A DNA stretch of 64,000 nucleotides from Incurvaria masculella. Lineage: Eukaryota; Arthropoda; Insecta; Lepidoptera; Incurvariidae. The position numbers and the translations under genes are program-made. This document shows positions 9,901 through 63,943 of the stretch, piece by piece (the first letter of the stretch is position 1; the number at the start of each line of letters is the position of its first letter). The notes under the pieces are model-generated. The model was given only the letters and a program-made list of their open reading frames with translations, was not told the DNA's origin and searched no databases. The stretch lies in assembly GCA_946894095.1 (NCBI GenBank), contig OX335641.1:11922501-11986500 (forward strand), read 5' to 3'.

Positions 9901-12900
9901 CATCAGCTCGGTCGCGCGACCCGCTCAGTTCCACGCCCTGGCGACGGGCGCACCGGGCCCCTCGCGCAGCGCCGCCGCCGCCGCCTCCACCTCGCCCACC
10001 TCGGGCAGGCTGCGGTACATGAGCGAAAGGTGGCCGCTGCTCACCGTGCGCACCGCCACGTACTCGCCGACCTGTCGTCCGTCCGGCGTACACTACATTA
10101 GCTGCTGTCACTGAAGAGAAAGGGAGGGGAAGTTGCGTGCGGTCGATATCGCGGCTCCGCCATGGTCATAGATTAAAGAGAAAGGTATGGATATCTAACG
10201 TCATACAACGTACAAAACTCGACGATGAGAGCTTATTTTCGCTGGTACTATGAAATTTCTAACCAGCGCCATCTACCTCCGCCATAACTGCCTTAATTAG
10301 TTACACCGTTATTAAAGTAAGTTTAATTTAAAATGTTGCCTAGGTAGGCATGATAAATACGCTACATTTTAACTATAAATGAACGAATGGCATTATTATT
10401 CATTGGTTTCTATTTTATGTATTCTGAATGTGAACAGCAACGCCACCTGTGGACTTTTATGATCCCTATTCAACACTTTTATGACGTTAGCATTCTATCC
10501 CTTGACTTTAATCTATGGCCATGGCCAAAGTGGCCGCACTCCAATGTACTCTCAAAATGCTTTCATCAAGTCAGTTCCCACTACAAACCCCTTCAATAAT
10601 ACATCAGTGACTAAATTTGCCTGTGGCATTTGCTTTTCAAGTTGGGTTGGTAGATTTTGATAATTGGAGACAGCGGGGCTCATAGTAGGCGCGCTAGATG
10701 GCATATCTCCTTCCTTCCTGTCTTCCTCCTTACTATCTATGGCTACAGTCTGTAAGTTCGTGGCTCAAGGGTGGGTGAAATTGCCTTTCATCCAGGTCTG
10801 GGTTGAAATACCCGCCCCGTTCAGTCTCTTTTTGAGTTGGCTAAGTGCATTTCGTTACGAAGGTGAGCTGTTCCATCGTTCGGAATCCATGTAAAACTGC
10901 CGGTGACTTCCCTTACTAGGTGGTGGGTTTAAGCCCACTCGGGTTGGTATCATTGTATCGGACGAAAAGATGGTCGAAGCGGCAATGTTGTGCTAGCCGC
11001 AAAATTGTCCGTGTTTTCTATCCATCCATGTCTAGTTCCATAAAAAAACGGTTTTACAAAGAAATATAAAAAGGGAATTATTTCATTACATTCACCAATG
11101 ATAAGATATTATTAATGCTTAAATATTTTTTTAGTGCTCTTATTTTAACATCAATATATATCACAAACTAGCAATGTACATTGCTGCAAGTCGTAGCGTA
11201 TTGGACAGGTATCTTTTGTAAAGTTTCTTTGCAGATTCTTCTTTACAGAGATGATCGAATCCGTTTCAGTTTTCTATCAGTTTTTTTCCTTACTTAGTGT
11301 AGTTTTGACTACCAAAAATGCAAGCCTACTCGTTCATTAGCATGCAGCGCCCAGTTCCAAAGCATGGCTTTATTATGTAAATTTATGTACTACCAGGCTT
11401 TTACAAAAGTAACTCTCTGCGAGGTATGCCGCCAGTGAAGTATCCAGTTTTATTAATTTTGTATTATCTTTGAGTGCTATACTTTTGCCCTACACTTTGT
11501 GTGCACATAAATGTACATACCTGTTGATACCGGTAACGCGGTGCCGCATCGCTGCGGTGCCACACCAACGAAAATGCCCCGTCGGTGTCCTCCTGCACTA
11601 GGAAGGATGGCGCATCGCCACTGCCCGATGGGATCAGTTTCACCGAATATTTAACATTGGCCCAGTCCACGGTGGGGCCGGACCATCGACTCCTGTGGTC
11701 GGCGATCTCTGCCGGCGTTAAGGCCTTGTAGCGGATGTTCCTTCGCCGCTCGCTCGCGGGAATGGCAGGCCAGCTGTACACGACGGTCCATGTTCCCTTT
11801 AGAATGCTCGCGTCGAAGGTATTGGCGTCTGTGAATGATGAGGGGCTGAGAATCGCTAGAGCGATCGCAGGAATTAGTACCGTAACAGACACCATTTTTA
11901 TATATTGTTAATGCCACATATGTGATTATTGTTCACTCAAAATTAGTACTGATCTAGCTTGCTGGCGATTTGTCATGCGACCGTTATTCGAATGACGAAT
12001 GCTTTGATGACAATGGCCCGGGTTAATACGTTATTTATGTTTAATTATTAAATATACTATCTAGTGTCGCGAGCACAGGTCAATCTGATTGGTTGTTATG
12101 TATAAAAAAGAAAACACGTTACGTAATTACATAAATATGTTTTCTTTTATTTTATCTGGAATTTCATGTTCTTTCCGGTTCAAGATAAGGTAAATATTAT
12201 GGGATGTAAACATGTTGTTATCATGGGGCTCTGAATGCGACTCAAACATTATCATCCAAATAGCGCATTCTTAGTAGTATAATTTTAGTATTTAGTCCTT
12301 TTACAACAATTATTTTTTGTTTAGCGCCACATATGGCATACGCCAGCCCTCAAAAATGTGCCCCACTGCCAAAACCATGCCAGCCGGCCAGGTGCTTCTT
12401 CACACCATGTTTGAAGTTACCCAGGTTGTACTTTGGGGGTTGTACTACTACTCATTGCTATAAATAAATGATCTAAAGGATAGGTTGGTTCCAATTCGAG
12501 GAATTTAGACAGTGAATGGGTGTATTCCCTGCCTGTTGCGCGATGAGCGGTAGTATAAGGGTAGAAAGGCATTCGTTCTTTTTAACCACAAAAGATCCTA
12601 GTCAGCAGTAATCTTGTGGCAAAACACATTTCGATTATACGTTGTAGGTTTTGTTACAGGCAGTCTCACTCAGTTGGTGTGATGCGTTGTGGGACACCGT
12701 ACCCTAGATCCAAATCTACTAAGTTGGGTTCCTCACGAATCGACGCTCGTATTGTGGTCCTATCAACAATAACGAAAAAAACAAACATCAATAAGATTGT
12801 ATTATTCTGCACTCTGATTGGTAAACCAGTTTATGTTGTTGAATCGACGAGGCGTGTTTGCATCGACAGGTACCGTTGGCGTATAGACCTGTCGCGGAGC

Positions 12901-19928: not shown

Positions 19929-20000
19929 CTACACTGAACTCTTCATTTCCTGCTTGACGCATGTCTTGAACGCTTCCCAGCCTTCATTCTTTGCGTACGA
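19929..20000 (-). CDS. MICU3: MICU3 last exon
   Basis: Acceptor tatttcag; reads SYAKNEGWEAFKTCVKQEMK and ends SSV then TAG, matching the short C-terminal tail of MICU3. Confidence 0.88.
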   Translation of the reverse strand, partial: SYAKNEGWEAFKTCVKQEMKSSV

Positions 20001-23000
20001 CTGAAATAAATTAGCATTATGAATTGTTAAAACCTGTTCAAAACATCGAAGGAATGGTAAACAGAAATTTTGTTTAGAATCACTTGTACCAAAAAAAACA
20101 CAATCAACGAATCTTGTAATCAGAATTAAACTGATTTGACTGAGGAAACTTTATATTTCGGTCATGTCACAAGCCATGTAACCGTTTTCAATCGTGTTGC
20201 ATTGATGTTATCGTAACAGAAATGTAAGCAAAGTTCTTTCTGTTCTGTATATTGGATGCATGAAATGTCTACATTGATTTTAAGTCAGGAATACCGTAAT
20301 GAATGTCCGTTCATAACTTTTAGTGTTTTAATAGGTCACAGCGTTGATTAGACCAAGCGAAAAAGCTTACCTTAAAGCCGCGATGCAGTCGGTCTTTCAT
20401 GATGGCGATAAACTCTTTATAGCTGAGCAGCCCGTCTCCGTCTGCGTCGAATATCGCGAAAACGGTGGAAACGAGGTGCGCCGACTGCGCTATGCCAGTG
20501 CAGATCTTGACCGCTCGATGAAATTCATCTGTTTAATCAACCGCATAATATTTAATAATGCATGAATTTGTCATGAATGGTAAACTCACAGGCTACTAAC
20601 TTCATAAACAAAAATAACCTTTTAACAAGTTCATGGCAGAAGTAATAGTATTAAAATTTTTCTTGTTGCCACTGGAGTAGTGCATAGCTTTAAGGTTTAA
20701 GCACTTGCCGCTAGATCTTACCAATTACTGCCAGTATAGTCATGTAAATTTCATTTCATTCATAGAGGTCAAGTTTTCAAGCATCTAGCGGCAGTTGAAA
20801 GGTTGTCGAAGGTTTACAGCCTTGGTGACGCTTGGTTTGGGTCACCTCTTAACCTAAAATATGGTTGAGAGAGGCGATGGCTGTACCCGGCGTGATGCTC
20901 GTGGACAGGTCCTATTTGTGGAGACTGGCCTGCTCCAATTGGCCACATGTTAGATGGCGGGTATAGTCTTTGCATGAAAAGGTGATATTAGTTATGTGGT
21001 ATGAATTGTTCGTGAACTCACATTAATTCAGTGTTTATCCCTGTTTGACTCCTATCAACAATGGTGCAGTACCTGGCAGAAAATGATGCACATTGGACGT
21101 TGGAAAGAGACAATCGGCTAGTTTCGGCTTTGTGTGTCATCTCTCTCGTACGTAGTATATAGGTACTGAGTGACAGCGATGACGCTCTACTATGCCGAAA
21201 CTAGCAGATTGTCTCATTCCAAGGTCCAATATGCATTATTTCCCAGCGAGTACTGTAAATACTTAATGTACACAAGGGATTTGGCAAACTCTTTTGTAAA
21301 CTGAGACTATGTTGACATGGCAAAAAAGTCCAGCAACGTTTCTTGCCAGGTTTTTGCTGTGATTGTTGAGCTGGTGCTAATTAATGATAAAATACGACAA
21401 ATCCAAGTGCGAGTGTATGATGAATAAACAATAAACAGAACGTAGAAGACCTATGTGTCATGTAGCAGGGCAGTTTGCAGGAGGACTAGTGAGATGGAAG
21501 GTTCACCTTTGGAGATGGGATGGTCGGCGAGCGTGTACATGCGCATGGCGATGGTGAAGTCCTCCAGGTTGTTGAGGAACTGGCAGAACACCTTGAACTC
21601 GTCGAAGGTGATGCCTCGCTCGACCTTCTCTCGCTCCAGCAGCCGGTCGAGGTACATGTCGTACTCGTCTGTGTCCAGGTACGTGTAACGGAGCAGGATC
21701 TTCGCGAAGTCCACTTCGGAGATCGTCTCGTGACCTAAAACAATAATTACTGAAGATCTAGGCGTGATACAGGAATACAGATTGTCCCGTAAACCTTCGA
21801 CAACCTTTCAGCTAGATACTTGAAACTTGACCTCTATGAATAAAATTAAATTTACATACTTATACTGGCAATACTTGGTAAGATCTAGCGGCAAGTGAAT
21901 GGTTTATGGGACATCCTATATTTGTGTATTCTTGCAGATGAGTGACTTAGTATGTCGAACGTATGTGGTTGATGGTGTGTGACAACAGAAGAGAAAAGGA
22001 AGGATAAGTGTCATTTGGGCGTTACGAGGGTTTCCGCCATAAGGTCATATTGTCCGTGGGAAGTCGGCAGTGCGTCATGCGCCAAACAGTCTAACCATCG
22101 CAGCCGTGCGCGTATGTACTCATACGTCGACCAAGTCAGTTCGCACTGACACAAAGCATCCAAAGCGTTTGCTCCTATGTATGTATGCGGGTAGCATTTA
22201 CGGTGAGGTAGAGTTTGGTAGCTTCAGAATTCAGGATGGATTTTAATTCCTCGCGACTCTTACCTTTGGCGAACTCCTGAAACTCCAGCTCGAGCACCTC
22301 GGTCTGCAGGTTCTCCATGAACTGGCGGAAGCCGTCGAACTTGAGGTCCGACGTGCCCTTCTTGCCGAAGAAGTGCACCGTCAGCATCGTGTCGACTGCG
22401 TGGCGCCGCTGCAGACCCTGCACATAGTCGGAGCCGTTCTCGGAAGTTATTTTTTCGTATTTTATTAGCTGCAGTAGTATTAGGATAGGATAGTAGGGAT
22501 GTCAATTAACTTAGGTTAGGTAAGGTGAGATATTTGCCATGATAGTATAGTTAAAGATAGTTGGAGTTGGGATAAGTTCTGTTCCTTCACGCCGTGTTTA
22601 AAGGACCCCTGTTGAACTTTAGAGGAAATACCTCGGCAGATAATACATTCCAAAGTTCAGCAAACGAGGAATTACTCCATGACGCGGAGGGGGATATTTT
22701 AAATAACATGATCAACGACCCGAAAGATGGTTCTTGAAGAGACCTGGAGTATTACCAAGGTAAATTCACTTGCCGGGTGAACCGTAAGTGAGTGATTAAG
22801 TCTAACCTTTAGTTGCATTTCCATGATTACTAGCAAATTTGAGTTCACTTGGCCAAATATTGTTGGGACAGTTCGACTACTATGAGAACGTGACTGTGAT
22901 TGATGGCCAAAATCATGGTAACTCTAGCGAGATGCCTGGTTCCGTCGAAACGTTTTTTTTCGGGAGTGTACATTCCTATTGCAATAGTATTACACATATT

Positions 23001-26000
23001 ACTTGCAAGGTCGTACCTGCTCGTCGTCGACATAGTTGTCGTGAGGCTGCAGCGCGGCGTCTCCCCCCGCCCCCGCCCCCGTGCCCCCCTGCTCCGTCAC
23101 GCCGCGCTTGCCGCGCCACGCGAAACTGAAGATCTTCTCCATCTGCGGTCACGCACCCACAAGGCTCAACAGATTGTGCGAGATTCGAAAAACCTATACT
23201 CTCACGCGCGCTCGTCGCCGCCTCAAATTGCAAATTCCATTGAAATTAAGTTTCGTCAGTTACATACCTAGTAAATATTATTATATCAAATTCCCGTAGG
23301 TCAGGACAAGTTTGACGAATTGGCGATTTGTTGTTGTAGTAATAGTTCTTGATGCAAAAGAAGTGACTGTGTAAACTTTAAGACAAAAGAGTAACATAGC
23401 CATAAGTATGAATATATGACGGCGACAAGCGCGCGCTAGTGAAAAGAGATGGGCATTTCTAACTTATTCCCAGTTGTGTTGCACTTCTGCTAATAAATAT
23501 TTAACATTAAGTTTGATTATACTAACAAAAGCAATCTTTTATTTACACTCATTTGCTGGTCTTTTTTTTCGCTACATAAAGGATATGGAAATGTCGTCAC
23601 ATCTTTACGAGATCAGTAGTACATCTAAAGTCCAATTTCAGACAGCAAAGTTTCAATTACGTTAATGTGCAATTAGCGCAGTTGCAGACATACTTACATA
23701 CAGTTGCAGAATTCAATGTTAAAATTACATTAATGTGTGACTGACCTAGTTGTATACATAAAAGTTACAATTGTCTAGTTTGATTGGCCCAGTTACAGAT
23801 ATCAAGATTAAAATAATATTAAAGTGTGATAAAACATGTCACTTTTTGTGAATCTCAAGGAGTCAAATAGGCTTTCTCTAATACATTTAAAGAAAGAAAC
23901 ATGTTTTGGGATTACGAAATTTTAACACTGACATTTCTTTTTGCGACTGCACTTGCAACGGATTTTTTTTAAACAATATTTAGCGACAAACAAACGCATG
24001 CAGTTGCATTTTATTTATTCAAAAGTATTCAAACACAATTATATTGCCCTTTTTTTAAATATTTTTAAAACATTTATTTAAATACACTCGGAATTAATGT
24101 TGCATGCCTGTAAATTTTTATGTGTAATTTAACATTTGCAGTTGCTTCAAAGTTCGGTTGACTTTGAATCAACTATGAAAACAACAAAAAAAAACGTTAT
24201 CACTGAAAACGATCCGAGTCGAAAACAGTTCGTGCCAAAATTTAATGCGTAAAAGGTGTACTATGAACTTATCTCAAGAGCGTTTTTTGTACGCGCGAGG
24301 TGCGTAAAGTTTGGCGCGAACTGTACATTTAAGTACACAAACAAACATATTCAGTATAAATGTGCAGTGATATTGTCGAAGATGTGATATTATAATTTCA
24401 CAAGTGATATTCTAATTTCATGGATCTTCTGCGTTCCTTACAATATCGCAGATATGTTTCAGTGATCTATATTAATAATAAATCTGTAAGGGGTGTTCAT
24501 GGAGTAAGTTGCTTTGTTTTCTAAGATACTGCGTTTGTAGACTTTATGTATGATACTAAAACTAAATTGACGATTTTTAGAAATATGTATGTATGTAATT
24601 ATGTAAGTTCGTCCATAACTCTTAAACCAATCATCCGAATTAGATGAAACTTAGTACACGTACATTTAACTACTCGGGACACAGGATAAGCTACCTAGTA
24701 TTTATAATAAAACTAGTTAGATTGTCATGTCGGCGCGAAAAGTTTTAGGCGTGAAATAAGGTCGAATTTTATTATTAAAATATAACCTACAGCTGTATGA
24801 TTTGAATAGGTTTAAGTTATATATTCATGTTAATATGTGACCATTCCATTTGACCAAAATCACTAGTGAAATTACAGCATCACGGTTTAGAGACAATGTC
24901 AGTGCGACATACATACATATTCAATACGAGATAAATGACAAGAAAATAACCACATACAATTAATTCCAGCCAAGTTCATACAACAACAAAACAAAAAAAA
25001 CAGATGTCCACACAAACAATTTGCAATGTCACGTCGCCGTTGACAATTCGACTCACAAAAGAAGACTTAGCGCCGGCTTGTGCTAGGGACGGCTCATTCC
25101 TCTTCTTAGTGCTGCTCTGCACTAAGGATAGCAGCTACGAACCCACGAGCAGTGGACGGCACAAAAGTTGTATTAAAATATGCATGACTATAAAAATTGG
25201 TATAAGGTATAATTAAATAATGTTCAAATGGTATTTTGAAAATAAAAGCATTGTGAATGTGAAACAAGTAATACTTAAATGTATTAAAATAATAGTAATT
25301 TAGTAGTTTACAAAAAAAATATAAAATGTGGAAAGTGTATGAACTTGAATTATTGCATCAGTGCAGTGTGTCCTTTGGGGAGTAATTTTAAAAGCAAAAT
25401 TTAACTACTTTTTACTATACATACTGCTGTTTTTCAAAATAAATATTTTTTCCGTAGCGTCAAAGATTTAGTTTAAACGCAGTACGTTCTGTGGTAGGGT
25501 TTCTTTTAAATACATAATAGTAAAAAGCAGTTTCGATTTAATCCAAGATTCACTTCCCCACGTTAATAGTGATGTGAATGTAACCCTGTATATGGTGATA
25601 CAATCGTATCTAATAAATTATGAATTGAATGGAAGTCTGGTTCGGTTAGTGACGCTAAAAATAAAAATAAATCAACAAAAATATTATAAACTTGAAATAT
25701 TGGTGTGTGAGGTGATATTTAAAAATAATTACCAAGATAACTAAAAAACAATACACACGGAAGCATTAGAAGAATTTAGTGCCGCTAAAGTATGAAGAAA
25801 TGTACATAATATTATGAAATGAAAAAAAAAAAACAAAGAACTTAAAACCTTCAACGCGATTTTTTTTGCTTTAAACACTACCCTGATATCTATGAGCATA
25901 TGATATGGTTTTGAATCCAAAATGAATTACATATTACTCTAGATTTGAAAAAATATTAATTACTTACCATAGAGGTAAACAATGTACAGAGTTTTTTCTA

Positions 26001-29000
26001 TACCGATATGATTTGTTATTAATGTATTTTTGGAATGAGTGTTGATATTGTATCCAGTTTCACTGGACATAAGGCAAAAAAAGTAGATAAAACAGCTATG
26101 TATTCTGCAAACAAAGAAATCAATTTCCTCGACCTCGATGTCTTGCCAATGCAAACTTTTAAGGATTTAAAAATGTTTATTATTGTACACCATAGAACAG
26201 CAATTCTAGCTGAAATCAGGGAACAAAAATGAAACAAAAAAAGAAGACATATATATCACAGAGCGGCACAAAGCAGCGTCACACACTCACAGCTTCCTGG
26301 CTCTTAGTGTCCAAGTCGGTGCGTTGCTTCAGTGACCCACCGAGCAGTCGCTGGATCTAGATCGCATGCGTCACGTGATACAACGTAACAGAGGAAAGGG
26401 AAAAATAGAAAACAAATTAAATCAAAACATAATAAATAAAAATAAAGAACATAAATACGTGGGTGGGTGTGCTTTAATATCTGTTAGTGCTCTATTCATT
26501 GGTGTGGATTACATATTGCTATGTTTACATACAGAGTGCAAATTAGATATATTAACCCTGTGTACAGTTAAGTATTTTTATGTGTCACTATAAAGAAAAA
26601 TAATTCCTATTATTTACCGTCTACTAAAAGGTCGACATCAATACGAATGGTCTCTATTTCCAGTATCAATTTACTAATATACATACATTCCAAAGAAAGT
26701 GCTACTATATTGGTGTGAAAATACACATCAGAGTGTATATAAGCATCGTGCTTCTTTAAAACATTTTGGCTGGAGTGAACCATTTCTGATTAACGTTAAT
26801 CTTTAGTTAAAGACATAAGAAGAAAGAAGACAGATATATATTATAACCAATGGTGCTCACCCCTTATTTCTGCAAAAAAAATTGGCGGTAGAACTTAAAA
26901 AACTAACAAAAATTAGTTTAACCAAAATATTCGTTTTTAAGTTTACACCATAACCGGGCAACGTCGGCGAAGCCAAAATTACTACACCTATCAACCGTAA
27001 GTGTTAATCGCCATATTTTATGATAGTTAAGATAAGATAGTTTGGTTTTGAAATTGGTCGAAATGAAGTGAGTCAGTGGTAATTGATGGGGGACGGACGC
27101 GGAATGGGGCCTTAAAAAGAACCGTATCAAGAGCCGATATAAGTATGCTATATGCAATATTGGAACAAGGATGATAATATATTGGAGGCATCAAGAAGCG
27201 ACACTTACGACTAGAAACTCGTTCTTGTCGACACGCTGATTACCGTCCGTGTCGAACATGTTGAACGCTATTTGGAAGCCGGACGCTGGCTCTGAAATAA
27301 CGACATAATTTTGACAATAACTACTTTAAGTAATAAGAAAAAAGTTCTTGTTGTTAAATTGCAAAATAAGGCTCTCTTTGGTGACTTAGGGTCTCTTCCA
27401 CCAAGCACTGATTTGCTTATTTCTCACATTAAAGGGCGTTTCTTGCCATCTCGCAATAGATAACAGCATAAAATAATCAGCACTTTAGTAATAAAGGCCC
27501 TTTAAGTGTTGATTAAACATAATCAGCATTTGGCGAAATGTAGCCTTATTACCTTAAGGTGCTTGATATTTCTTTTGTTCTTTGTTCTATGCTGTTCTAC
27601 GAAAAAAAAGGGTTTTGTTGGTTTACGTATTATAACATAAATGCATTGACGTACATAAAGTTATTTGTTGTTTTTCGGAATTGTTTCTTCGTAATTTGCC
27701 CGGTGTTTGCTATCTTTAATTTTTTGAAATTTGATCTAAAACTATTTTACTAAAGTAATTATAACGAATATCACGTATTTAAGCAATCGTGTTGATAATT
27801 AAGAAAACCAAAACGTATTCAATAAGCGGGCAAATTAAAATGGAATAACAGCAACACTCGTATGTTTCGCAATGGTGGTACGGACGTTTGTATGGGGATC
27901 TACTCTGATTGTCGGTCTATTGCTTTGGTCATGTCGATGCATAAATGTCGATTTGATCAGTGAAGGTTCTTTCCGGGTTCTTACTCACTGAGGTAATAGG
28001 ATCTGCGGATCAATCAATTTGTGACGTAACTTGGTGTAGTTTTACCACCAGAAGATAAAATAAATTTAATACGAGTTAAGAGTGCAAGCAAGTTAAAAAA
28101 AATCATGAAGTTTCAAAATATGTACTTACTAGTTAAAATTGATAGAAGAAACAGGTACTCCGTATAAGAGATGATTCCTGGAAACAATCATTTCGGACCA
28201 TTCGTTTAAATTTATTCTTAAAAGATATGCATTTATCATGTACTGAATTCTGTGCCGACCCCTATTATGTAGTCGCGATCACGTAGATATGATTAAAAAA
28301 TACAGGTTGAAGATCAGAAAATGCATAAATATTAGTTTAATGAACATGGTTAAGAAAAATATGAACCAATAAAAAAGTATTTGGTGCATGAGTTTCGGTA
28401 CTCTGTGACAACGTACATATTACGATGTAGCCTGAGTTTACTAACAGTAGACTGTGATGCTTATTTTTAATAATTTAAAATAGTAGGCCCCAAGTGACTA
28501 GAGACCATGCCAGAAAATTCCCTATATTAAGTCTGAACAACGTTTAAAGGACGATCCAATTCAACTATATTTCCGTTTAGCATTGAATGCGATGGAAGAT
28601 ACCAAACGCCTACCAGCTAATAAAACCTACATGGACTTTTACACGGGTTCCAAATTTTATTGCTTAATTAAGTGGACATTTCTAACTTACAAGGGAAATA
28701 AAGAGGATATGCCAGTAAGTTTAAGCCCGCCTGGCTTGATACCGTTGCATTGTCTCGGTAGCTCAGTGTGCGACGCCTTGCGAATTGATAAGGTGGGGAA
28801 GCACCTCTGAGCGCGGTTATGTTCTGGATGGGTGACCATTTTCAACCGTTGAGGCTGGCCGTGGTTCGGATTCCACGTAAAACTGTAGGTCCCTTTCCTT
28901 ACTTACTAGGTGCTAGGGTTAATCCCGCCCGGGTTAGTACCATCGCATTAAATGAACGATGGTCGAAGCGGCAATGAAAATTGTCCGTGTTTTCCATCCA

Positions 29001-31341
29001 GTTCGATGCAGCCGAGCAATATAAGGAAGGTCCTGGCATGGCACCTAGTTCCCATGTGGTGTGTTAGGCTAATATCTGACGGTCAGTTCTGTATTAGCCA
29101 TCCATGACCAGTTACATAAAAAATATATGAATGAAAGCGGCACTTGGGCGTTTGGGGAGCCGGCGGTGTGATATAAGCCCTGGCCAGTCATATAGAAGAT
29201 GTAGCGACCCACCCCTGTCGCGGAGGCTCCTAAAGAGTTGCGTGGAGCCCTTGCGCAGCGCCGGCGTGTTGTCGCGCAGCTGCTCGATCTCCTTCGTTGT
29301 CAGCACCTTGCGCTTCAGTCGAGCTGCAACGTGAGAAACGTATACCTGCTCAACTAGCAAAGCGTATGTGCACACAATGGTGAGATCGGGTGCTAAATAA
29401 CAAAACACCATCACGGGTAGCACAGCACGAGTATCTAGTATTATCTACATAGTATATGAAACATCACTGAATGAGTGGATTTCTTCACGATGTTTTCCTA
29501 CATCTTAACCGGTTTGGTACAAAAAAGTTCCTGGTGAGTAACCAGCCGATACTACTTGTAAGGAAATTTAGTGTAGTGTAGACCTGTTAATCAACTAAAC
29601 CAGAAGAGATCTAGTATAACCTTCTGCTAAGAATACATTGCATCGTGGCGAAACTCACGGCGCGACTCCTGCTGAACCACCGACTCGAGAAAGTCCTGCG
29701 GCGTCATGTAAAGATGGCCGTTGTACTCGGAGGAGGCGAAATTGTTGAAGCGGCGCTCCCGCAACGTCACCTTCACCGACTTGGTCCGCTCTGGTCGCCG
29801 TGGAAGTGTGAACTTGTGAACTTATATGCTAGCAGGAAGACATCGACTCACGACGCGGCTCCTGCTCGACCACCGACTCGAGGAATTCCTGCGGCGTCAT
29901 GTAAAGCTGGCCGCTGTACTCGGAGGAGGCGAAATTGATGAAGCAGCGCTCCCGCAACGTCAGCTTCACCGACTTGGTCAGCTCTGGTCGCCTTGGAAGT
30001 GTGAACTTGTCAACGGATATGCTAGCAGGAAGACATCGACTCACGGCGCGGCTCCTGCTCGACCACCGACTCGAGGAAGTGCTGCGGCGTCATGTAAAGC
30101 TGGCCGTTGTACTCGGAGGGGGCGAAATTGATGAAGCGGCGCTCCCGCCACGTCAGCTTCACCGACTTGGTCAGCTCTGGTCGCCGTGGAAGTGTGAACT
30201 TGTGAACTTATATGCTAGCAGGAAGACATCGACTCACGACGCGGCTCCTGCTCGACCACCGACTCGAGGAATTCCTGCGGCGTCATGTAAAGCTGGCCGC
30301 TGTACTCGGAGGAGGCGAAATTGATGAAGCAGCGCTCCCGCAACGTCAGCTTCACCGACTTGGTCAGCTCTGGTCGCCTTGGAAGTGTGAACTTGTCAAC
30401 GGATATGCTAGCAGGAAGACATCGACTCACGGCGCGGCTCCTGCTCGACCACCGACTCGAGGAAGTGCTGCGGCGTCATGTAAAGCTGGCCGTTGTACTC
30501 GGAGGGGGCGAAATTGATGAAGCGGCGCTCCCGCCACGTCAGCTTCACCGACTTGGTCAGCTCTGGTCGCCGTGGAAGTGTGAACTTGTGAACTTATATG
30601 CTAGCAGGAAGACATCGACTCACGACGCGGCTCCTGCTCGACCACCGACTCGAGGAATTCCTGCGGCGTCATGTAAAGCTGGCCGCTGTACTCGGAGGAG
30701 GCGAAATTGATGAAGCAGCGCTCCCGCAACGTCAGCTTCACCGACTTGGTCAGCTCTGGTCGCCTTGGAAGTGTGAACTTGTCAACGGATATGCTAGCAG
30801 GAAGACATCGACTCACGGCGCGGCTCCTGCTCGACCACCGACTCGAGGAAGTGCTGCGGCGTCATGTAAAGCTGGCCGTTGTACTCGGAGGGGGCGAAAT
30901 TGATGAAGCGGCGCTCCCGCCACGTCAGCTTCACCGACTTGGTCAGCTCTGGTCGCCGTGGAAGTGTGAACTTGTGAACTTATATGCTAGCAGGAAGACA
31001 TCGACTCACGGCGCGGCTCCTGCTCGACCACCGACTCGAGGTAGTCCTGCAGCGTCATGTAAAGCTGGCCGTTGCACTCGGAGGAGGCGAAATTGATGAA
31101 GCGGCCCTCCCGCAACGTCAGCTTCACCGACTTGGTCAGCTCTGGTCGCCGTGGAAGTGTGAACTTGTGAACTTATATGCTAGCAGGATGACATCAACTC
31201 ACGGCGCGGCTCCTGCTCGACCACCGACTCGAGGAAGTCCTGCGGCGTCATGTACAGCTGGCCGTTGTACTCGGAGGAAGCGAACTTGATGAAGCGGCGC
31301 TCCCGCGACGTCAGCTTCACCGACTTGGCCAGCTCGTCCGG
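19929..31341 (-). CDS. MICU3: Mitochondrial calcium uptake protein 3, 5' end not found
   Basis: EF-hand regulator of the mitochondrial calcium uniporter, acting in the intermembrane space. Exons in transcript order: 31341-31203, then a cassette array to 29659, 29323-29213, 28177-28130, 27291-27209, 26356-26291 (possibly alternative), 23142-23017, 22468-22264, 21734-21507, 20528-20371, 20000-19929. Without array copies and the 66-nt exon this gives 389 residues plus TAG. Signatures are YMTPQDFLESV, ISYTEYLFLLSIL, EF-hand 1 DTDGNQRVDKNE, TVHFFGKKG with FMENLQTEVLELEF, ITFDEFKVFCQFLNNLEDF, EF-hand 2 DADGDGLLSYKE, and FIAIMKDRLHRGF. These match MICU3 better than MICU1 or MICU2, especially FFGKKG, ILLRYT and FLNNLEDF. 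Calcium-coordinating positions of both loops are intact. The mitochondrial targeting exon(s) must lie above 31341 and were not recognised. The gene is convergent with PPME1. Confidence 0.92.
20371..20528 (-). CDS. MICU3: MICU3 exon with EF-hand 2
   Basis: Acceptor taaacag, donor AAG|gtaagc. Contains VFAIFDADGDGLLSYKEF with all ligand positions, then IAIMKDRLHRGFK. Confidence 0.93.
20690..20824 (+). mobile_element. Small MITE in MICU3 intron, copy 1
   Basis: About 130 bp (taaggtttaagcacttgccg ... ggttgtcgaaggttta). An inverted relative is at 21785-21912. Confidence 0.55.
21070..21250. mobile_element. Hairpin-forming MITE in MICU3 intron
   Basis: Inverted arms of about 55 bp: ttggacgttggaaagagac, ggctagtttcggc on the left against gccgaaactagc, attgtctcattccaaggtcc on the right. 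Confidence 0.6.
21507..21734 (-). CDS. MICU3: MICU3 exon
   Basis: Acceptor tgttttag, donor AAAG|gtgaac. Reads DFAKILLRYTYLD, then GITFDEFKVFCQFLNNLEDF and ADHPISK; closest to MICU3. Confidence 0.93.
21785..21912 (-). mobile_element. Small MITE in MICU3 intron, copy 2
   Basis: Reverse relative of 20690-20824 (taaaccttcgacaaccttt ... ctagcggcaagtgaatgg). The two flank a MICU3 exon. Confidence 0.55.
22264..22468 (-). CDS. MICU3: MICU3 exon, core helical domain
   Basis: Acceptor tactgcag, donor G|gtaaga. Reads LIKYEKITSENGSDYVQGL, then MLTVHFFGKKG and FMENLQTEVLELEFQEF, a diagnostic MICU2/3 block. Confidence 0.92.
22735..22870. mobile_element. MITE family 3 copy
   Basis: ttaccaaggtaaattcactt ... 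agtgagtgattaagtct; similar text at 37860-38020 and 56530-56710. Confidence 0.5.
23017..23142 (-). CDS. MICU3: MICU3 exon with Gly-rich linker
   Basis: Acceptor gaccgcag, donor CAG|gtacga, phase 0-0. Reads MEKIFSFAWRGKRGV and then a glycine/alanine-rich run ending NYVDDEQ. Its start fits the exiting helix of EF-hand 1, like the K-I-I segment of vertebrate MICU3. Confidence 0.82.
23143..26290 (-). other. MICU3 intron, nothing else recognised
   Basis: AT-rich intron of about 3.1 kb; several short frames but none with family similarity. Confidence 0.55.
26291..26356 (-). CDS. MICU3: MICU3 66-nt exon, possibly alternative
   Basis: Acceptor gatctag, donor GCT|gtgagt, phase 0-0. Reads IQRLLGGSLKQRTDLDTKSQ. 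It can follow EF-hand 1 directly, as can the next exon (23142-23017), so the two may be alternatives or serial. Codon-like composition and good sites support a real exon. Confidence 0.65.
27209..27291 (-). CDS. MICU3: MICU3 exon with EF-hand 1
   Basis: Acceptor tatttcag, donor GTC|gtaagt. Reads FQIAFNMFDTDGNQRVDKNE, a complete EF-hand loop with Asp, Asp, Asn and Glu at positions 1, 3, 5 and 12. Confidence 0.92.
28130..28177 (-). CDS. MICU3: MICU3 48-nt exon
   Basis: Acceptor gtttccag, donor A|gtaagt. Encodes GIISYTEYLFLLSILT, the conserved block before EF-hand 1. Too short to appear in an open-frame scan; recognised from family conservation and phase. Confidence 0.9.
28752..29122 (+). mobile_element. 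SINE with 5S-rRNA-like head, near full length
   Basis: Best copy. The head carries gaagcacctctgagcgcgg and ctggatgggtgacc, a clear match to the 5S rRNA segment aagcaacgt..ggcgcgg..ggatgggtgacc. The body has gatggtcgaagcggcaat and gtccgtgttttccatccag, with an A-rich end. It lies next to a MICU3 exon. Confidence 0.8.
29213..29323 (-). CDS. MICU3: MICU3 exon after the array
   Basis: Acceptor cgttgcag, donor G|gtgggt. Encodes RLKRKVLTTKEIEQL then LFRSLRDRG; starts in phase 1, so it joins any array copy. Confidence 0.88.
29659..29790 (-). CDS. MICU3: MICU3 array exon copy 1 (3'-most, divergent)
   Basis: 132 nt, acceptor gcgaccag, donor CGCC|gtgagt. Private changes: RTKSVKVT, RFNNFA, NGHLYM and VVQQESR. 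Downstream of its donor the sequence leaves the repeat and becomes unique intron. Confidence 0.7.
29852..29983 (-). CDS. MICU3: MICU3 array exon copy 2 (type A)
   Basis: Type A sequence with intact splice sites; last A unit before the divergent copy 1. Confidence 0.7.
30045..30176 (-). CDS. MICU3: MICU3 array exon copy 3 (type B)
   Basis: Type B sequence with intact splice sites; last B unit of the three A/B pairs. Confidence 0.7.
30238..30369 (-). CDS. MICU3: MICU3 array exon copy 4 (type A)
   Basis: Same type A sequence as copy 6; open frame and both splice sites present. Confidence 0.7.
30431..30562 (-). CDS. MICU3: MICU3 array exon copy 5 (type B)
   Basis: Same type B sequence as copy 7, as far as I can compare by eye; both splice sites are kept. 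Confidence 0.7.
30624..30755 (-). CDS. MICU3: MICU3 array exon copy 6 (type A)
   Basis: 132 nt, intact sites. Type A protein: TLRERCFINFASSEYSG and MTPQEFLESV. Confidence 0.7.
30817..30948 (-). CDS. MICU3: MICU3 array exon copy 7 (type B)
   Basis: 132 nt, intact acceptor and donor. Type B protein: TWRERRFINFAPSEYNG and MTPQHFLESV. Confidence 0.7.
31010..31141 (-). CDS. MICU3: MICU3 array exon copy 8
   Basis: 132 nt, acceptor gcgaccag, donor gtgagt, open frame. Carries private changes: REGRF, SSECNGQ and YMTLQDYL. Its 61-nt upstream intron is shared in form by all later copies. Confidence 0.7.
31203..31341 (-). CDS. MICU3: MICU3 array exon copy 9 (5'-most, canonical)
   Basis: Acceptor gtccccag, donor CGCC|gtgagt. 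A 139-nt exon, phase 0 in and phase 1 out, reading PDELAKSVKLTSRERRFIKF then YMTPQDFLESVVEQEPR. It has a unique upstream intron and matches the family best, so I take it as the ancestral exon of the array. Confidence 0.9.
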
Positions 31342-31526: not shown

Positions 31527-31774
31527 CTGCCAACGAGGACAGCTCAATCCGTTCCCACGGGCAGTTCACACGACGCACCAGATACCAACGGGTCGTACGA
31601 CACGGGAACCGCCACAGGCAACCAAGTCACCGATTGACCATCGATAAAAACTGCCAAATCTCATCGAACCGCAGTACGTGCTGACACTTGAAAGCAACTC
31701 TAAAGCGACGTTTACAAACGTATGTGTACCAATATTGATTGGCACACATACGTTTGAAAATGGCCCATAAACAT
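31527..31774 (+). repeat. 248-bp local duplicate R, copy 1
   Basis: Same length and sequence by eye as 32112-32359. Contains an internal inverted repeat (aaacgtatgtgt / acacatacgttt). Confidence 0.85.
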
Positions 31775-31775
31775 A

Positions 31776-32112
31776 AAGTATTTAATTAAAAAATCGATTG
31801 GTTATTGTTGCATAATGAATAGGTATCAATGTTTCTAGAAAATCAATACATTCATCAGCAGGTACATTCCAACATCTATTTTATATAGCCAATCTAGATA
31901 ACGCAACCACTTGGAACAGGCAGACCGACATATTTAGTATCAGAGATTCTAACCTGTGAACCAAAATTCAGCAATTTACCTTATCGTGACCAAAAATGTC
32001 GTGACCTCCCGGAATAATACCTTCTTTGATCCGTTACAAGAAGCTGCTCCCGTTTTTGCAACGGTTTTTTTCGTTGCATTTTATGCTTTGCTATTTTATG
32101 AGGTGAAAGAAC
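31776..32112 (+). repeat. 337-bp local duplicate S (half of a MITE plus its flank)
   Basis: Same as 34239-34575. It includes the right half of MITE family 1 and about 100 bp of flanking sequence, so it arose by DNA duplication, not transposition. Confidence 0.82.
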
Positions 32113-32359
32113 TGCCAACGAGGACAGCTCAATCCGTTCCCACGGGCAGTTCACACGACGCACCAGATACCAACGGGTCGTACGACACGGGAACCGCCAC
32201 AGGCAACCAAGTCACCGATTGACCATCGATAAAAACTGCCAAATCTCATCGAACCGCAGTACGTGCTGACACTTGAAAGCAACTCTAAAGCGACGTTTAC
32301 AAACGTATGTGTACCAATATTGATTGGCACACATACGTTTGAAAATGGCCCATAAACAT
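32112..32359 (+). repeat. 248-bp local duplicate R, copy 2
   Basis: Second copy of R, following the S segment. Confidence 0.85.
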
Positions 32360-32873: not shown

Positions 32874-33420
32874 GGTGGCCCATCCCGCTCATCTCCCCAT
32901 ACAAAAGGGGAAAGAAGATCACGCCCATATTTCTTGTCTGAGATCCAAAATTTTGCTCTAAATAGCTTGGTTTGATCGAACTAGATGTCTGATGACCATT
33001 GGCATTGTAAAATTGTGTTTGGTTTCTAAGTTATAAGGTCCGAAAGTTCGCATTTTTCGCGCGTTTTATATAATAACTTTGGAGGTGGATTACGCAATGA
33101 TAAAGTAAGAACATCTTAAAAAGATTAGTCATCAGACATAACTTATTTAATCAAGATTTATGATCTATTTGGTTTTTGTTCGATTTATTACTACAGCAGT
33201 CGTGGTTTACTTTTAGCTATAAGTCGTTTTGAAATTAAAATTTTCGTAAATCTTACCAAATCATACACTATGCACATTGTCTTTTTTGTGGACATGTTGC
33301 ATCTTCCTCATCACGGAGCCTGTCTTATTTTTTGAAACAGAGAAGGTCCCAGAGCGCAACAGCACGGTTTTGTACCGTGCCCGCGAATGAGTTAGGGCCG
33401 CCGGGTTGGGCCACCTTAAA
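32874..33420 (+). mobile_element. MITE family 2, near full copy
   Basis: About 545 bp, starting ggtggcccatcccgctcat and ending gccgggttgggccacctta; short inverted ends. Interior is AT-rich and without a frame. Confidence 0.7.
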
Positions 33421-33930: not shown

Positions 33931-34475
33931 TAGGAGGTCGCGACAAAAATGGTAACGATAACGTAAACAGCTGAAACTGGGTTCACAGGATAAAGTCCAA
34001 CCCTCTGAAGCTAAATGTGTCAGTCTGCCTATTCCAAGTGGTTGCGTTAAGTAGATAACGTGCCTGAAAAAGTAGATATGGTGACAACAAATATATATTA
34101 TAAGGTAAATGTATGCAAATGACGAAGCATGAAAGTATCAGTACATACTTTGTTAGCAATAGAAAAACTGAACAAACATTTGATTGCATATCAAAATTAT
34201 AGGCGATTTAGGTCACAGATATAAATTTAGGTATATTTAAGTATTTAATTAAAAAATCGATTGGTTATTGTTGCATAATGAATAGGTATCAATGTTTCTA
34301 GAAAATCAATACATTCATCAGCAGGTACATTCCAACATCTATTTTATATAGCCAATCTAGATAACGCAACCACTTGGAACAGGCAGACCGACATATTTAG
34401 TATCAGAGATTCTAACCTGTGAACCAAAATTCAGCAATTTACCTTATCGTGACCAAAAATGTCGTGACCTCCCGG
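33931..34475 (+). mobile_element. MITE family 1, full copy
   Basis: About 545 bp with long imperfect terminal inverted repeats (left taggaggtcgcgacaaaaat, right ggtcacgataaggtaaa-type complement), each near 150 bp. No coding capacity. Confidence 0.75.
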
Positions 34476-34575
34476 AATAATACCTTCTTTGATCCGTTAC
34501 AAGAAGCTGCTCCCGTTTTTGCAACGGTTTTTTTCGTTGCATTTTATGCTTTGCTATTTTATGAGGTGAAAGAAC
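34239..34575 (+). repeat. 337-bp local duplicate S, source copy
   Basis: Here the segment is continuous with a full MITE on its left, which suggests this is the original. Confidence 0.8.
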
Positions 34576-38200: not shown

Positions 38201-38702
38201 TTAAGGTGGCCCAACCCGCTCATTTCCCCATACAAAAGGGGAAAGAAGATCACGCCTATATTTCTTGTCAGAGATCCAAAATTTTGCTCAATATAGCTTT
38301 ATTTGATTGAACTAGATGTCTGATGACCATTGGCATTGTAAAATTGTGTTTGGTTTCCAAGTTATAACGTCCGAAAGTTCGGATTTTTCGCGCGTTTTAT
38401 ACAATTACTTTGGAGGTGGATTACGCAATGATAAAGTAAGAACATCTTAAAAAGATTAGTCATCAGACATAACTTATTTAATCAAGATTTATGATCTATT
38501 TGGTTTTTGTTCGATTTATTACTACAGCGGTCGTGGTTTACTTTTAGCTATAAGTCGTTTTGAAAATAAAATTTTCGTAAATCTTACCAAATCATACACT
38601 ATGCACATTGTCTTTTTTGTGGACAGGTTGCATCTTCCTCATAACGGAGCCTGTCTTATTCTTAGAAACAGAGAAGTTTCCAGAGCGCAACAGCACGGTT
38701 TG
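38201..38702 (+). mobile_element. MITE family 2, right end missing
   Basis: Starts ttaaggtggcccaacccgct; the sequence stops matching after agcacggttt. Confidence 0.7.
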
Positions 38703-44277: not shown

Positions 44278-44827
44278 TTAAGGCGGCCCAACCCGGCGGG
44301 CCCAACTCATTCGCGGGCAGGGTACAAAACCGTGCTGTTGCGCTCTGGGACCTTCTCTATTTCAAAGAATAAGACAGGCTCCGTGATGAGGAAGATGCAA
44401 CATGTCCACAAAAAAGACAATGTGCTTAGTGTATGATTTGGTAAGATTTACGAAAATTTTAATTTAAAAACGACTTATAGCTAAAAGTAAACCACGACCG
44501 CTGTAGTCAAAAATCTAACAAAAACCAAATAGATCATAAATCTTGATTAAATAAGCTATGTCTGATGACTAATCTTTTTACGATGTTCTTACTTTATCAT
44601 TGCGTAATCCACCTCCAAAGTTATTGTATAAAACGCGCGAAAAATTTGAACTTTCGGACCTTATAACTTAGAAACCAAACACAATGGTACAATGCCAATG
44701 GTCATCAGACATCTAATTCTAATAAATAAAGCTATTTTGAGCAAAATTTTGGATCTCTGACAAGAAATATGGGCGTGATCTTCTTTCCCCTTTTGTATGG
44801 GGAGATGAGCGGGATGGGCCACCTTAA
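44278..44827 (-). mobile_element. MITE family 2, full copy, reverse
   Basis: ttaaggcggcccaacccggc at the left and gatgggccaccttaaaa at the right. Confidence 0.72.
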
Positions 44828-44828
44828 A

Positions 44829-45298
44829 ATGTTGCTCAAAATAGCTTTATTTGATCGAACTAGATGTCTGATGACCATTGGCATTGTAAAATTGTGTTTG
44901 GTTTCTAAGTTATAAGGTCCGAAAACTCGCATTTTTCGCGCTTTTATACAATAACTTTGAAGGTGGATCACGCAATGATAAAGTAAGAACATCTTAAAAA
45001 GATTAGCCATCAGACATAGCTTATTTAATCAAGATTTATAATCTATTTGGTTTGTGTTCGATTTTTTACTACAGCGGTCGTGGTTTACTTTTAGCTATAA
45101 GTCGTTTTGAAATTAAAATTTTCGTAAATCTTACCAAATCATACACTATGCACATTGTCTTTTTTGTGGACATGTTGCATCTTCCTCATCACGGAGCCTG
45201 TCTTATTCTTTGAAACAGAGAAGGTCTCAGAGCGTAACAGCACGGTTTTGTACCGTGCCCGCGAATGAGTTAGGCCCGCCGGGTTGGGCCGCCTTAAA
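44829..45298 (+). mobile_element. MITE family 2, left end missing
   Basis: Follows the previous copy directly in inverted orientation and ends gggttgggccgccttaaa. Confidence 0.7.
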
Positions 45299-57385: not shown

Positions 57386-57586
57386 TGTCACGTCTTGGCG
57401 TGCTCGGGGGTGGCGTAGCTCAGTGAAAATCCAGATCATCGGGAACCAGAACTTTATTTGGCAAAATTATTTTCTAAAAACAAAACTCTCTCCGATCCGC
57501 TTTTTCTAGTCTCTCTTCGAACACGGAACTGTCATTTTTTTTTAAACTATTCTATTTTATTTTTATGTGCATGGCCTGGCATGACA
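57386..57586 (-). repeat. 3' LTR
   Basis: 201 bp, TGTCA...TGACA ends. The purine-rich tract gatagggaaggg on the minus strand abuts its inner edge. Confidence 0.93.
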
Positions 57587-59426
57587 CCCTTCCCTATCTT
57601 TACAAATTAGTTTATGTTCCACCAAGTTTAGTTCTGAGGTCCCAAAACTTCGAGGAGTATTTGCTAACTAATTTAAAGAACTGCCCGAGTGGGGCCCTGT
57701 GTCCCATATTCATTTGTGAACACAGTTTGACCGAGTAAAACCTCGTCAAAATCTCAGTCAGAATCCTTGACCTGACAGTCGAGCAGACAGACATTTATAT
57801 TTATAGAAAACGATCACTAGATCTGCTCGCAAGAAGCTAGTAACAATTTATAATATATACTCTATACTCTATGACTCCTTACAGACCTATGAAGTAATTG
57901 CCTTGTGTGGCCGTTACTTACTATCAACTCTGTGACAGAAGACTTGAAACTCTATGGATCATTGTATGCTGTCTTCTGAGACTGGCCGCTGGCCGGACAG
58001 ACTAGACGTTTGACAGGTTGTCATACGTCACTTTGTAACATGAATTATTTTAAACTTCACAACCCACAACATAAATTATTCTACATAGTTAAACATAATC
58101 TTTTATAGGCCTGAGATAGAAAGCTAGAGCCATACGGGCTCCTTAAACATTTGCTTCGTCCTGTTTGCTTCGTCCCGATTTTTTTTCGGTTGGTTGATGA
58201 GTGCATGACTCCAGCCTGAAGACGCTCCCAGCCGCCGACTCGAAGACGACCGAGCGAACGCCGAGGACCAGCGTGCTTTTGAAGCTCAGCACCCAGCATC
58301 GGAGGGTAGCGCGTTCCAAACTCGATGGCATCACACAACAACATATTAGACTAAGTCTTACGAGTCCTTTGTCTATTTACTAAGATGATACTACTTAATA
58401 GAATACATGTACTTACGTAAAATTATTCTATTTATTTAACTAATATGATAAACCTAATCAGGTATGGACGATGGCACATAAGCCAAAATATTACAAATAA
58501 ATCAATTAATAATATTGAATTAAATAAAATTTGGTCTATTTCACTAGAATATTATTTAAAGTTACGGATGAAATCAAAGGAAAACATACTTATGTTATGT
58601 TATCTAGAGTTATTACTAGAGTTATAATTAAAAAATATGTATGATTATAGCTATGGTACAAACATAATTATTTTAAGTACAAAAATCATCCATGGATGAC
58701 AACCAAATTAGGATAATATTATGCTAAAGAAAGGTAATACAAAGAGTGAAAAAGATATTTAATAAATGAGATGATACCTTTCATTTCGAACATTCTGAAT
58801 GCAATATTATTGGATACGAAGGTTTTCGCCTACACCTGGGTGTGCTACCGAAGTTATCTATGTTTTCTTCAGAGAAAACTAAATATGAATATGAACATAA
58901 TCGAATCAATATATCTATACATTTCAGTCAGATGAAATTAGATAAAATAGACCCTAGTACGTTGCAAATTCTAACCGGAAGTTACCGCACATCGACCCCA
59001 TCGTTATTTACTCCAAGAATAAAATGCTCTGAGTAGACCATGAAATTAAAATAATTCAACAATTCTACAAACTTATATACTTGAGACCCTTCTCGTACAC
59101 ACAAACTTAATCAGTAAAAATAATAGGCAATCAAATAAAATTATAATATATTCCTAACAGGAACAGATTCAAAATAATTACTAGCCTAGATTTATTCGCA
59201 TTCAGAATTATTCCAAATATGTCACGGTTAAGACCAAATGGATATTTTTGAATTTTGGGAATGGCTCTTTACTTGACCCTACCCTATTATACTAAAGTAA
59301 AATAACATAAGTACATACTACGAGTGCGGTGATTGTACAACAAAATAAAGATCTAACTACTAATATATGCACATGACATATTATTAGAATCAAGACATGG
59401 TAAAAAAAAAGGATTATTGGTATCAG
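57587..59426 (-). other. Long 3' noncoding part of the LTR element
   Basis: No convincing open frame. Mostly AT-rich, apart from a GC-richer island at about 58190-58340. There is no recognisable envelope gene. Confidence 0.6.
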
Positions 59427-62400: not shown

Positions 62401-62666
62401 TTTATCACAATCACTTCTAATATAAAGTTTAAATTCTGGATGAGCAAATTAATGGTAGTAAATCCAGCAATGTTCAATGAATTATTCGAAGCACTTTTTA
62501 ATGTAAAGTTTTCTGGTATTTCAAACAAATGTCTCCCTTTAACCACTTCATAGTTTATGCAGCTTTTCACTGCTCCCGTGTCAACCAAACCCGCAATTTC
62601 CTTGCAAAAATCACATGAGTACATGGGTAAATAGAGTATCGTACCTTCCTTTATCACGGGCGACAT
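59427..62666 (-). CDS. pol: Retrotransposon Pol polyprotein
   Basis: 1,079 residues from the first ATG of the frame; the true entry is probably the upstream open segment by frameshift. Protease LVDTGA (active Asp29); reverse transcriptase with FCVDYRPLN, WQIPI and YLDD (370-373); RNase H with acidic residues at VDAS, TDHRAL and ADALSR; integrase with an HHCC finger (His740, His748, Cys778, Cys781) and D,D35E residues Asp810, Asp870, Glu906; GPY/F-like module YEGPYRI near 1037. No stop or frameshift is seen, so it may be active. Confidence 0.96.
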   Translation of the reverse strand: MSPVIKEGTILYLPMYSCDFCKEIAGLVDTGAVKSCINYEVVKGRHLFEIPENFTLKSASNNSLNIAGFTTINLLIQNLNFILEVIVIKDLPTELILGVDFLKETGAMVDYSGQEIILHRLNKTFSFSECTLKEVNIPIDNKTRNYFINAKPSVGYVFTTSSRKPNTTYEIGQNLNKTQKTILNELLYEYRDRFAYSNGDIGKTTHHEVKINTGDTLPIHRPPYRVSMAQRDIINTQVEEMLGNNIIRHSKSAYSSGVVLVKKGDGTWRFCVDYRPLNKLIKNDCYPMPRIDDLLSCLQGATYFASLDLLAGYWQIPIAEQDREKTAFCTSSGLYEFNVLPFGLKTSPSIFQRLMDRVLGELKYHGAIVYLDDILVYGKSYEIFLNNLRNVLNKLRLAGLTLKPNKCSFGVREVAILGHQVSAVGISPAKKNIEKIVNFPTPKTAKQVRSFIGLASFFRKFIPNFSKKSLVLTALTHNNVQFRWGEEEQTAFQWLKQELVKPPCLSHFSEDEGEIIRIAVDASNESLGAHVMQGSKQNKPSEFKTIAFASRGLSSLEKKYNTTEKECLAIIWAFDYFKHFTWGRKIQVVTDHRALCWLQSCKDMNRRLAGWSLKLQDVEMEIIHRPGKENLVADALSRIQYTEEEQEVGNVEIPTYFIKPQGKPHQDSYILRNHSLSVDQLNDHFCAAIIKKVQDHHSNAFKGYFMDQGILKKRVKVTSGEHILIVLPQIRVNNILKEAHDEALTGGHLGLAKSLGKISSKYYFPGLAKQVESYVKTCKICQEKKHRSGKPFGELINIPVAGIFDKIGIDIIGPLPKSNTGNRYIITAIDYLSKWAETKPLEKATAESVANFLIENIFCRHGVVKEIISDRGSVFTSKLVKNVLELLNSHSILTTAFHPQGNGLCERFNGTLVQALSMYVRQDQRDWDIYVPLVTFAYNTADQSSTHISPFLLVYGRQPLFPSDFSSNATKLTLTEKIEFIEKLKQQAKANITKSQKAQKKTFDRKRQSMLFEPGQLVLVQNPCKIIGKKTKLARMYEGPYRITARLSPVNYKIKSLNDKLKFEQNIHMNRMKPFYIRA

Positions 62667-62686
62667 TACACGTGTCTCAGTCCTTA

Positions 62687-63436: not shown

Positions 63437-63742
63437 TTTTCAGAATAGAACCCTAATCAAACCCTACATAGGAAAAATAGCACCACACCAATTAATGTTC
63501 AAGATGAGAATACACACATGAGTTCACAATGTTCAAGAAGAAATACTCACCAAGGAAAGTCCATATTCCCAACCCTTTATATACTAACACCCGACGTTTC
63601 TGGGCGTCGTCTCCTTCGCACCGTGCGCTACACGTGCAGCAGCGGTAGCCCGAGCAGCAGTGGTACGCGAAGCAGCGCAGGCCTTCTACGGCCTAAACTT
63701 CGACTCCTCCGACGATCTAGGCGATCTAGGCGCCTCCACCAA
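63437..63742 (-). other. Leader of the LTR element
   Basis: About 300 bp between the 5' LTR and gag. Its LTR-proximal half is rich in GC and in short repeated triplets; no start codon leads into gag in frame. Confidence 0.6.
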
Positions 63743-63943
63743 TGTCACGTCTTGGCGTGCTCGGGGGTGGCGTAGCTCAGTGAAAATCCAGATCATCGGG
63801 AACCAGAACTTTATTTGGCAAAATTATTTTCTAAAAACAAAACTCTCTCCGATCCGCTTTTTCTAGTCTCTCTTCGAACACGGAACTGTCATTTTTTTTT
63901 AAACTATTCTATTTTATTTTTATGTGCATGGCCTGGCATGACA
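63743..63943 (-). repeat. 5' LTR
   Basis: 201 bp, same sequence as the other LTR including a run of nine T. Inward on the minus strand the next bases are ttggtggaggcgcc, a candidate primer binding site beginning TGG; I could not name the tRNA. Confidence 0.93.

Follow-up and report, generated by a model that had tools for sequence, protein, structure and literature searches.

Several systems are described in which one exon of a gene has been copied or a small exon has been added. In arthropods, Dscam contains one exon in many tandem copies that carry splice sites of their own, and one of these copies is chosen per message (PMC1397879, PMC3236188). The leucine-rich repeat (LRR) genes of Tetrahymena contain arrays of 90-bp exons of equal length with one phase at all borders, for which unequal crossing-over has been proposed (PMC6564038). 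Y-linked genes of Drosophila carry variable numbers of extra exon copies whose effect on the protein is uncertain (PMC8794474), and Drosophila Gr39a shows lineage-specific tandem exon copies, with relaxed selection on the duplicating exons and decay of some of them (PMC2204066). Furthermore, the extra micro-exon of MICU1.1 can alter the calcium sensing of a MICU protein (PMC8909990). No paper on MICU3 in Lepidoptera, or on tandem exon duplication in MICU3, was found in the open-licence PMC literature. Here, we analyzed a stretch of 64,000 nucleotides of Incurvaria masculella (the window, C1:11922501-11986500 in the genome search), in which one exon of the mitochondrial calcium-uptake gene MICU3 is present as nine tandem copies. 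The assembly has 552 Mb in 31 contigs, and the contig carrying the array is 36.3 Mb long.

The array lies on the minus strand, from 31341 to 29659, and its copies follow each other with an exact period of 193 bp (Table 1). Tandem Repeats Finder, with a score of 3002, reported it as a single array at 29653-31335 that has a period of 193, 8.7 copies, 0% indels and 94% matches, and chance falls far short of explaining a tandem array so large with units so alike. Copy 1 has 139 nt and copies 2-9 have 132 nt apiece; the 7 nt at the start of copy 1 are missing from the latter, which also begin in a different phase. All eight inter-copy introns have 61 nt, are of the GT..AG type, start with GTGAGT and end with GCGACCAG, and GTGAGT is also found directly after copy 9. 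No stop in the MICU3 frame is present in any of the nine copies. The array thus consists of adjacent homologous exons with their own GT and AG at each of the nine, which is the structure of a tandem exon duplication. The block common to all nine copies extends over 139 nt, from GAGCTG to GTGAGT, and a 54-nt spacer between copies occurs eight times for the nine copies. Five sequence types were distinguished: copy 1, copy 2, type A (copies 3, 5, and 7), type B (copies 4, 6, and 8) and copy 9. The three copies of type A are identical in the 126 exon nt compared as well as in the introns that follow them, and so are the three of type B. When the genome was searched with the exon, at least nine matches were obtained, and with an 81-base query around the spacer at least eight, both counts being lower bounds; among the matches listed, all were at the MICU3 array. 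A second MICU3 locus as the source of the copies was rejected, as the exon search matched the nine-copy locus only, among the matches listed. Outside the array, the window showed no likeness to the spacer above the shuffled level, either ahead of copy 1 or past copy 9 (best 25, shuffles 20-27).

The closest solved structure to the exon product is human MICU3 (6agi, E 2.5e-15), and between exon 2 and the stop, each exon of the gene in turn is matched by insect MICU3 proteins; exon 2 alone matched no family in Pfam. The exon set of the whole protein was located on the same strand, with the stop codon at 19931-19929. Exon 1 was not found within the 64-kb window; it lies further upstream, at C1:12007966-12008169, with about 54 kb between it and copy 1, so that intron 1 is very long. 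It reads MASLGRG...VHALKVK and ends with AAG followed by gtaag, which corresponds to phase 0. These matches identify the array exon as coding exon 2 of MICU3, and the order in which the exons would be joined rests on homology. These results agree with the original prediction, which had claimed nine tandem copies on an exact 193-bp period, in a MICU3 gene, with an open frame, an acceptor and a donor at every copy: the period is confirmed by Tandem Repeats Finder and the copy-by-copy coordinates, the identity of the gene by the 6agi and exon-by-exon matches, and the sites by the GT and AG at each copy and the lack of stops.

Copies 2-9 are in phase 1 at their start, after GCGACCAG, as well as at their end, and are therefore symmetric units of 132 nt. 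Copy 1 together with any subset of copies 2-9 reads to exon 3 without a stop (256/256), as in an in-frame additive exon array; one copy adds 44 residues and the inclusion of all eight adds 352. By contrast, when copy 1 is omitted and the reading starts in phase 0, as after exon 1, all 255 non-empty subsets of copies 2-9 meet a stop with the CAG acceptor, and in-frame replacement, which a mutually exclusive array needs, fails. An AG located two bases further on (GAG) would allow each of the eight copies to replace copy 1 in frame, but breaks addition. Copies 2-9 can be added but not swapped, unless the GAG acceptor is used, because exon 1 ends in phase 0 and the copies start in phase 1; hence, if copies 2-9 have a natural use, it lies in being joined to copy 1 and not in standing in for it. 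Retention of any one of the eight inter-copy introns leads to a stop. Among the outcomes proposed in the original prediction, an expandable MICU3 is possible on paper, given 132 nt and phase 1 at both ends, while a set of splice isoforms fails in the sense of swapping one copy (255/255 stops) and stands for isoforms with added copies or for swaps through the GAG acceptor; the third, a very recent duplication, holds for the dimers, which are three identical 386-bp units.

All nine donors show GCC or GTC followed by gtgagt, and those of copies 2-9 agree with that of copy 1. In the 18 positions of the tract preceding the acceptor, copies 2-9 have four T, in relation to six in copy 1 and eight in exon 3, and one of six other MICU3 acceptors likewise has four T in 18. 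The inter-copy introns are short, yet longer than the minimum of 34 nt given for Bombyx mori (PMC3755909).

Over 126 nt, copies 2-9 have in common five differences from copy 1, three amino-acid changing and two silent, so that they most likely derive from one already drifted duplicate. Private changes (nonsynonymous/synonymous) were 4/0 in copy 2, 3/0 in type A, 3/1 in type B and 5/2 in copy 9, with a total of 15/3; one further nonsynonymous change in the first bases of copy 9 is outside this tally. Without selection, nonsynonymous changes would make up 68-73% of random single changes, and a count of at least 15 among 18 has a p of 0.17-0.34. The same result has a p of 0.01-0.04 at an omega of 0.5, and of 1.4e-4 to 1.2e-5 at an omega of 0.2. 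The 22 variable sites are distributed as 8, 6, and 8 among codon positions 1, 2, and 3. Between types A and B, changes were found at 7 of the 126 exon bases compared and at 4 of the 61 bases of the intron, and the exon changes are at the intron rate. In their pattern of change, copies 2-9 look neutral. Furthermore, in a profile built from 88 distinct family segments, copy 1 scored 139.8 bits in relation to a family median of 138.7, the family rows being part of the profile on which they were scored, and has no residues unseen in the 88 segments; the types of copies 2-9 scored 92-114 bits and show three to six unseen residues. Copy 1 is conserved, and the sequence as a whole suggests selection on this copy only, with the other eight forming a young array.

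The original prediction had also held that preserved frames and sites in every copy argue against decay, and this is not sustained by the expected numbers. The probability of no stop by chance in 18-23 distinct exonic changes is 0.35-0.53, and that of the four GT/AG bases being spared in 30 changes is 0.53; the array contains 29 distinct substitutions, 23 in the exon and six in the intron. In other repeats of the window, gap openings per mismatches were 4/133 (identity of at least 90%), 29/451 (at least 85%), 61/655 (at least 80%) and 153/1248 (all 33 pairs), the pairs being overlapping and not independent. From these ratios, zero indels would occur by chance with a probability of about 0.42, 0.16, 0.07 or 0.03, respectively, and the array itself is at the 90% identity level, where the argument from indels is weakest. 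Intact frames are not surprising, because the copies are young and neutral-looking and the array is at this level, and preserved frames as proof of function were rejected on the basis of the expected stop and indel numbers.

The remainder of the gene was compared with 95 MICU3 protein rows (P0001-P0095), nearly all of them from moths or butterflies. Of 302 conserved columns, 9 are altered in the gene of the window, a count that includes the part encoded by copy 1 and is the sixth highest value of the 96 rows; the three diamondback moth rows differ at 11. It appears somewhat diverged, yet not decayed. A decayed MICU3 gene was rejected as an explanation: from exon 3 onwards, all exons show open frames, splice sites and conservation. 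We also examined 256 related proteins (the best 120 of 3495, another 23 taken from the best 120 of 1112, and 113 of 113), and more than one exon copy was found in none of them: 251 have one and five have none. Two high-scoring relatives, P0144 and P0145, are single-copy proteins. Protein records do not prove that the array is missing from related genomes, because skipped copies would not show in them. In the AlphaFold model of the relative P0001, with a mean predicted local distance difference test (pLDDT) value of 50.4 and MICU3 (EFHA2) chains as top PDB matches, the exon corresponds to residues 70-115 and shows a helix (81-89), two strands (92-94 and 97-99) and a second helix (102-110), with its ends in coil. 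According to this low-confidence model, the copied unit would be one helix-hairpin-helix.

In our opinion, the locus is probably a young and still-changing array of MICU3 exon 2, whose extra copies are mostly skipped or tolerated as an in-frame addition. It would have started with a single duplication of the block from GAGCTG through GTGAGT, leaving a 54-nt filler at the junction, and the filler together with a few altered bases at the block start would have produced a new acceptor (gcgaccag). The second copy would then have drifted before its amplification in 193-bp steps, and in the latest step a 386-bp two-copy unit would have been amplified to three identical dimers. We infer this order of events, with unequal crossing-over as the simplest mechanism of amplification. 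The expansion appears recent because copies 3-8 are three identical 386-bp dimers; relative ages read from the divergence are firm, with about 6% from A to B and 0% between the dimers, and the identical dimers make copy number variation between individuals likely. Copy 1 would stay the working exon, normally spliced to exon 3, and copies 2-9, with no apparent protein constraint, would be mostly skipped and occasionally added after copy 1. An accidental inclusion would add one 44-residue unit without a shift of frame, and this may explain the tolerance of the array. Skipping or tolerated minor inclusion is favored because the extra copies look unconstrained and the gene does not. Several points weigh against this explanation. 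The 92-114 bits of copies 2-9 do not leave the family range, although they are in its low tail (minimum 88.4), and the undamaged frame and length in eight copies slightly favor a kept frame (indel chance 0.03-0.42), so that a mild pull towards kept frames in copies 2-9 is possible. In addition, the donors of these copies equal that of copy 1 and their acceptors are comparable to some ordinary MICU3 acceptors, and skipping is proposed from the DNA sequence, with which inclusion would be compatible as well.

Regular addition of some or all of copies 2-9 would instead make MICU3 a co-spliced repeat protein, with up to eight extra 44-residue N-lobe units (352 residues), perhaps in variable number. 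All 256 combinations in frame, the copy 1-like donors, the CAG acceptors, the inter-copy introns above the Bombyx mori minimum (PMC3755909), the lack of stops and indels across the copies, and the correspondence of the exon with one helix-hairpin-helix with coil ends, in a weak model of a relative (mean pLDDT 50), are in line with it. However, copies 2-9 show no sign of protein constraint although the gene is constrained, a second copy is present in 0/256 relatives examined, and the acceptor tracts of the copies are poor in T (4/18, in relation to six in copy 1 and eight in exon 3), and we consider such a protein rather unlikely. Slightly more doubtful is the idea that added-exon splicing yields a MICU3 family with one to nine N-lobe helix-hairpin-helix units, whose number would vary between individuals; a conserved non-repeat calcium sensor would then have been caught in the middle of its change into a repeat protein.

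The remaining explanations have a much lower probability. A wrong copy number caused by an assembly error, above all in the three identical dimers, would account for 1158 bp without one difference, but the 552 Mb in 31 contigs and the 36.3-Mb contig suggest long reads that would span 1.7 kb, five unit types with differing introns oppose a wholly false array, and the window contains no N; we regard this error as improbable. Similarly improbable is an expression brake, in which exon 1 would be spliced to copies 2-9 or a short intron retained, leading to stop-bearing messages and less MICU3: stops do appear in 255/255 sets without copy 1 and on retention of each of the eight introns, but the brake requires skipping of copy 1, which has the better acceptor tract, and the copies show no sign of selection. 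It is marginally less probable than the assembly error. The least probable is that each message takes one of the nine copies as in Dscam. Tandem copies with their own splice sites fit such a choice, and the GAG acceptor two bases on puts each of copies 2-9 in frame after exon 1; nevertheless, with the CAG acceptor any replacement of copy 1 meets a stop, as exon 1 ends in phase 0, and three of the types are near-identical repeats without a sign of kept diversity. Mutually exclusive splicing was therefore rejected by phase, except through the GAG acceptor.

Table 1. Coordinates in the window of the MICU3 exon copies, related array features and further MICU3 exons; copies 2-9, on the minus strand, start at their higher coordinates.
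Feature	Position	Strand	Remarks
Copy 1, ancestral coding exon 2 of MICU3	31203..31341	-	139 nt, phase 0 to 1
First of eight inter-copy introns	31142..31202	-	61 nt, contains the 54-nt spacer found only between copies
Copy 2	31010..31141	-	132 nt, phase 1 to 1
Copy 3	30817..30948	-	Type A
Copy 4	30624..30755	-	Type B
Copy 5	30431..30562	-	Type A
Copy 6	30238..30369	-	Type B
Copy 7	30045..30176	-	Type A
Copy 8	29852..29983	-	Type B
Copy 9	29659..29790	-	Most diverged (7 private changes/126 nt), followed by a differing intron start
Three identical 386-bp dimers	29791..30948	-	Each copy A, intron, copy B, intron; 100% over 386 bp
Exon 3	29213..29323	-	111 nt, next exon beyond the array
Exon 4	28130..28177	-	
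Exon 5	27209..27291	-	
Exon IQRLLGGS...	26291..26356	-	
Exon MEKIF...	23017..23142	-	
Exon GLQRRH...	22264..22417	-	
Exon HETISEV...	21507..21734	-	
Exon DEFHRAV...	20371..20528	-	
Last coding exon	19929..20000	-	SYAKNEG...MKSSV and stop

According to protein records, other moths have MICU3 isoforms with the exon IQRLLGGS... as well as isoforms that lack it, which is ordinary alternative splicing elsewhere in the gene. Intron 1, just upstream of the array, shows a 248-bp repeat twice (31527-31774 and 32112-32359, 100% identity), and the 337-bp stretch between both repeats (31776-32112) recurs at 34239-34575, also with 100% identity. Judged by their identity, these repeats are a second set of very recent duplications, less than 3 kb from the array. 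An imperfect palindrome of about 1 kb (44278-45297, 89.7%) has arms which are 94-96% like 32874-33420 and 38201-38701, and it thus belongs to a dispersed repeat family. A long terminal repeat (LTR) retroelement was found at 57386-63943; its terminal 201-bp direct repeats are 100% identical, and for this reason it is probably a recent insertion. It contains a Pol-like frame (59427-62771) with reverse transcriptase, RNase H, integrase and protease domains, and a frame of 250 aa (62687-63439) without a Pfam match. On the minus strand, at 11464-11907, there is an open frame of 147 aa whose start is near a signal-like stretch; it has no Pfam match at E 0.001, and by eye we take it to be presumably lipocalin-like.

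Tandem exon arrays have usually been met old and functional. The MICU3 array is young and lies within a strongly conserved gene, and its parts can still be read, from the ancestral copy and a junction with filler to units that have diverged and dimers that are recent and identical. It shows a possible start of an in-frame exon array and why symmetric phase could let an array persist; if any of the copies were translated, it would be a natural experiment on the insertion tolerance of the MICU3 N-lobe. In its anatomy it is a tandem exon duplication with an additive phase design, which works unlike the Dscam arrays. As in Dscam, there are tandem copies of one exon with their own splice sites; however, the Dscam copies are reported to be of old origin and diverged, and gene conversion has left no sign in them, whereas the MICU3 copies are young and partly identical, and replacement breaks the frame. 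The Tetrahymena LRR arrays resemble the MICU3 array in that any copy number is in frame and unequal crossing-over has been proposed, but they involve thousands of genes, phase 2 and a repeat protein, in contrast to one array in phase 1 whose relatives are not repeat proteins. Extra exon copies with an uncertain effect on the protein are common to the Drosophila Y-linked genes and MICU3; those of Drosophila are Y-linked and mostly at gene ends, whereas the MICU3 array is internal, evenly spaced and fully in-frame. Gr39a, like the MICU3 array, combines lineage-specific tandem exon copies with relaxed selection, although its copies are large first exons with alternative use and an old history, and the MICU3 copies derive from a short internal exon and none is decayed. 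Finally, MICU1.1 likewise has an exon added within a MICU protein gene, but there it is a conserved exon of four residues in MICU1, while here whole-exon copies of 44 residues in MICU3 are known from DNA alone.

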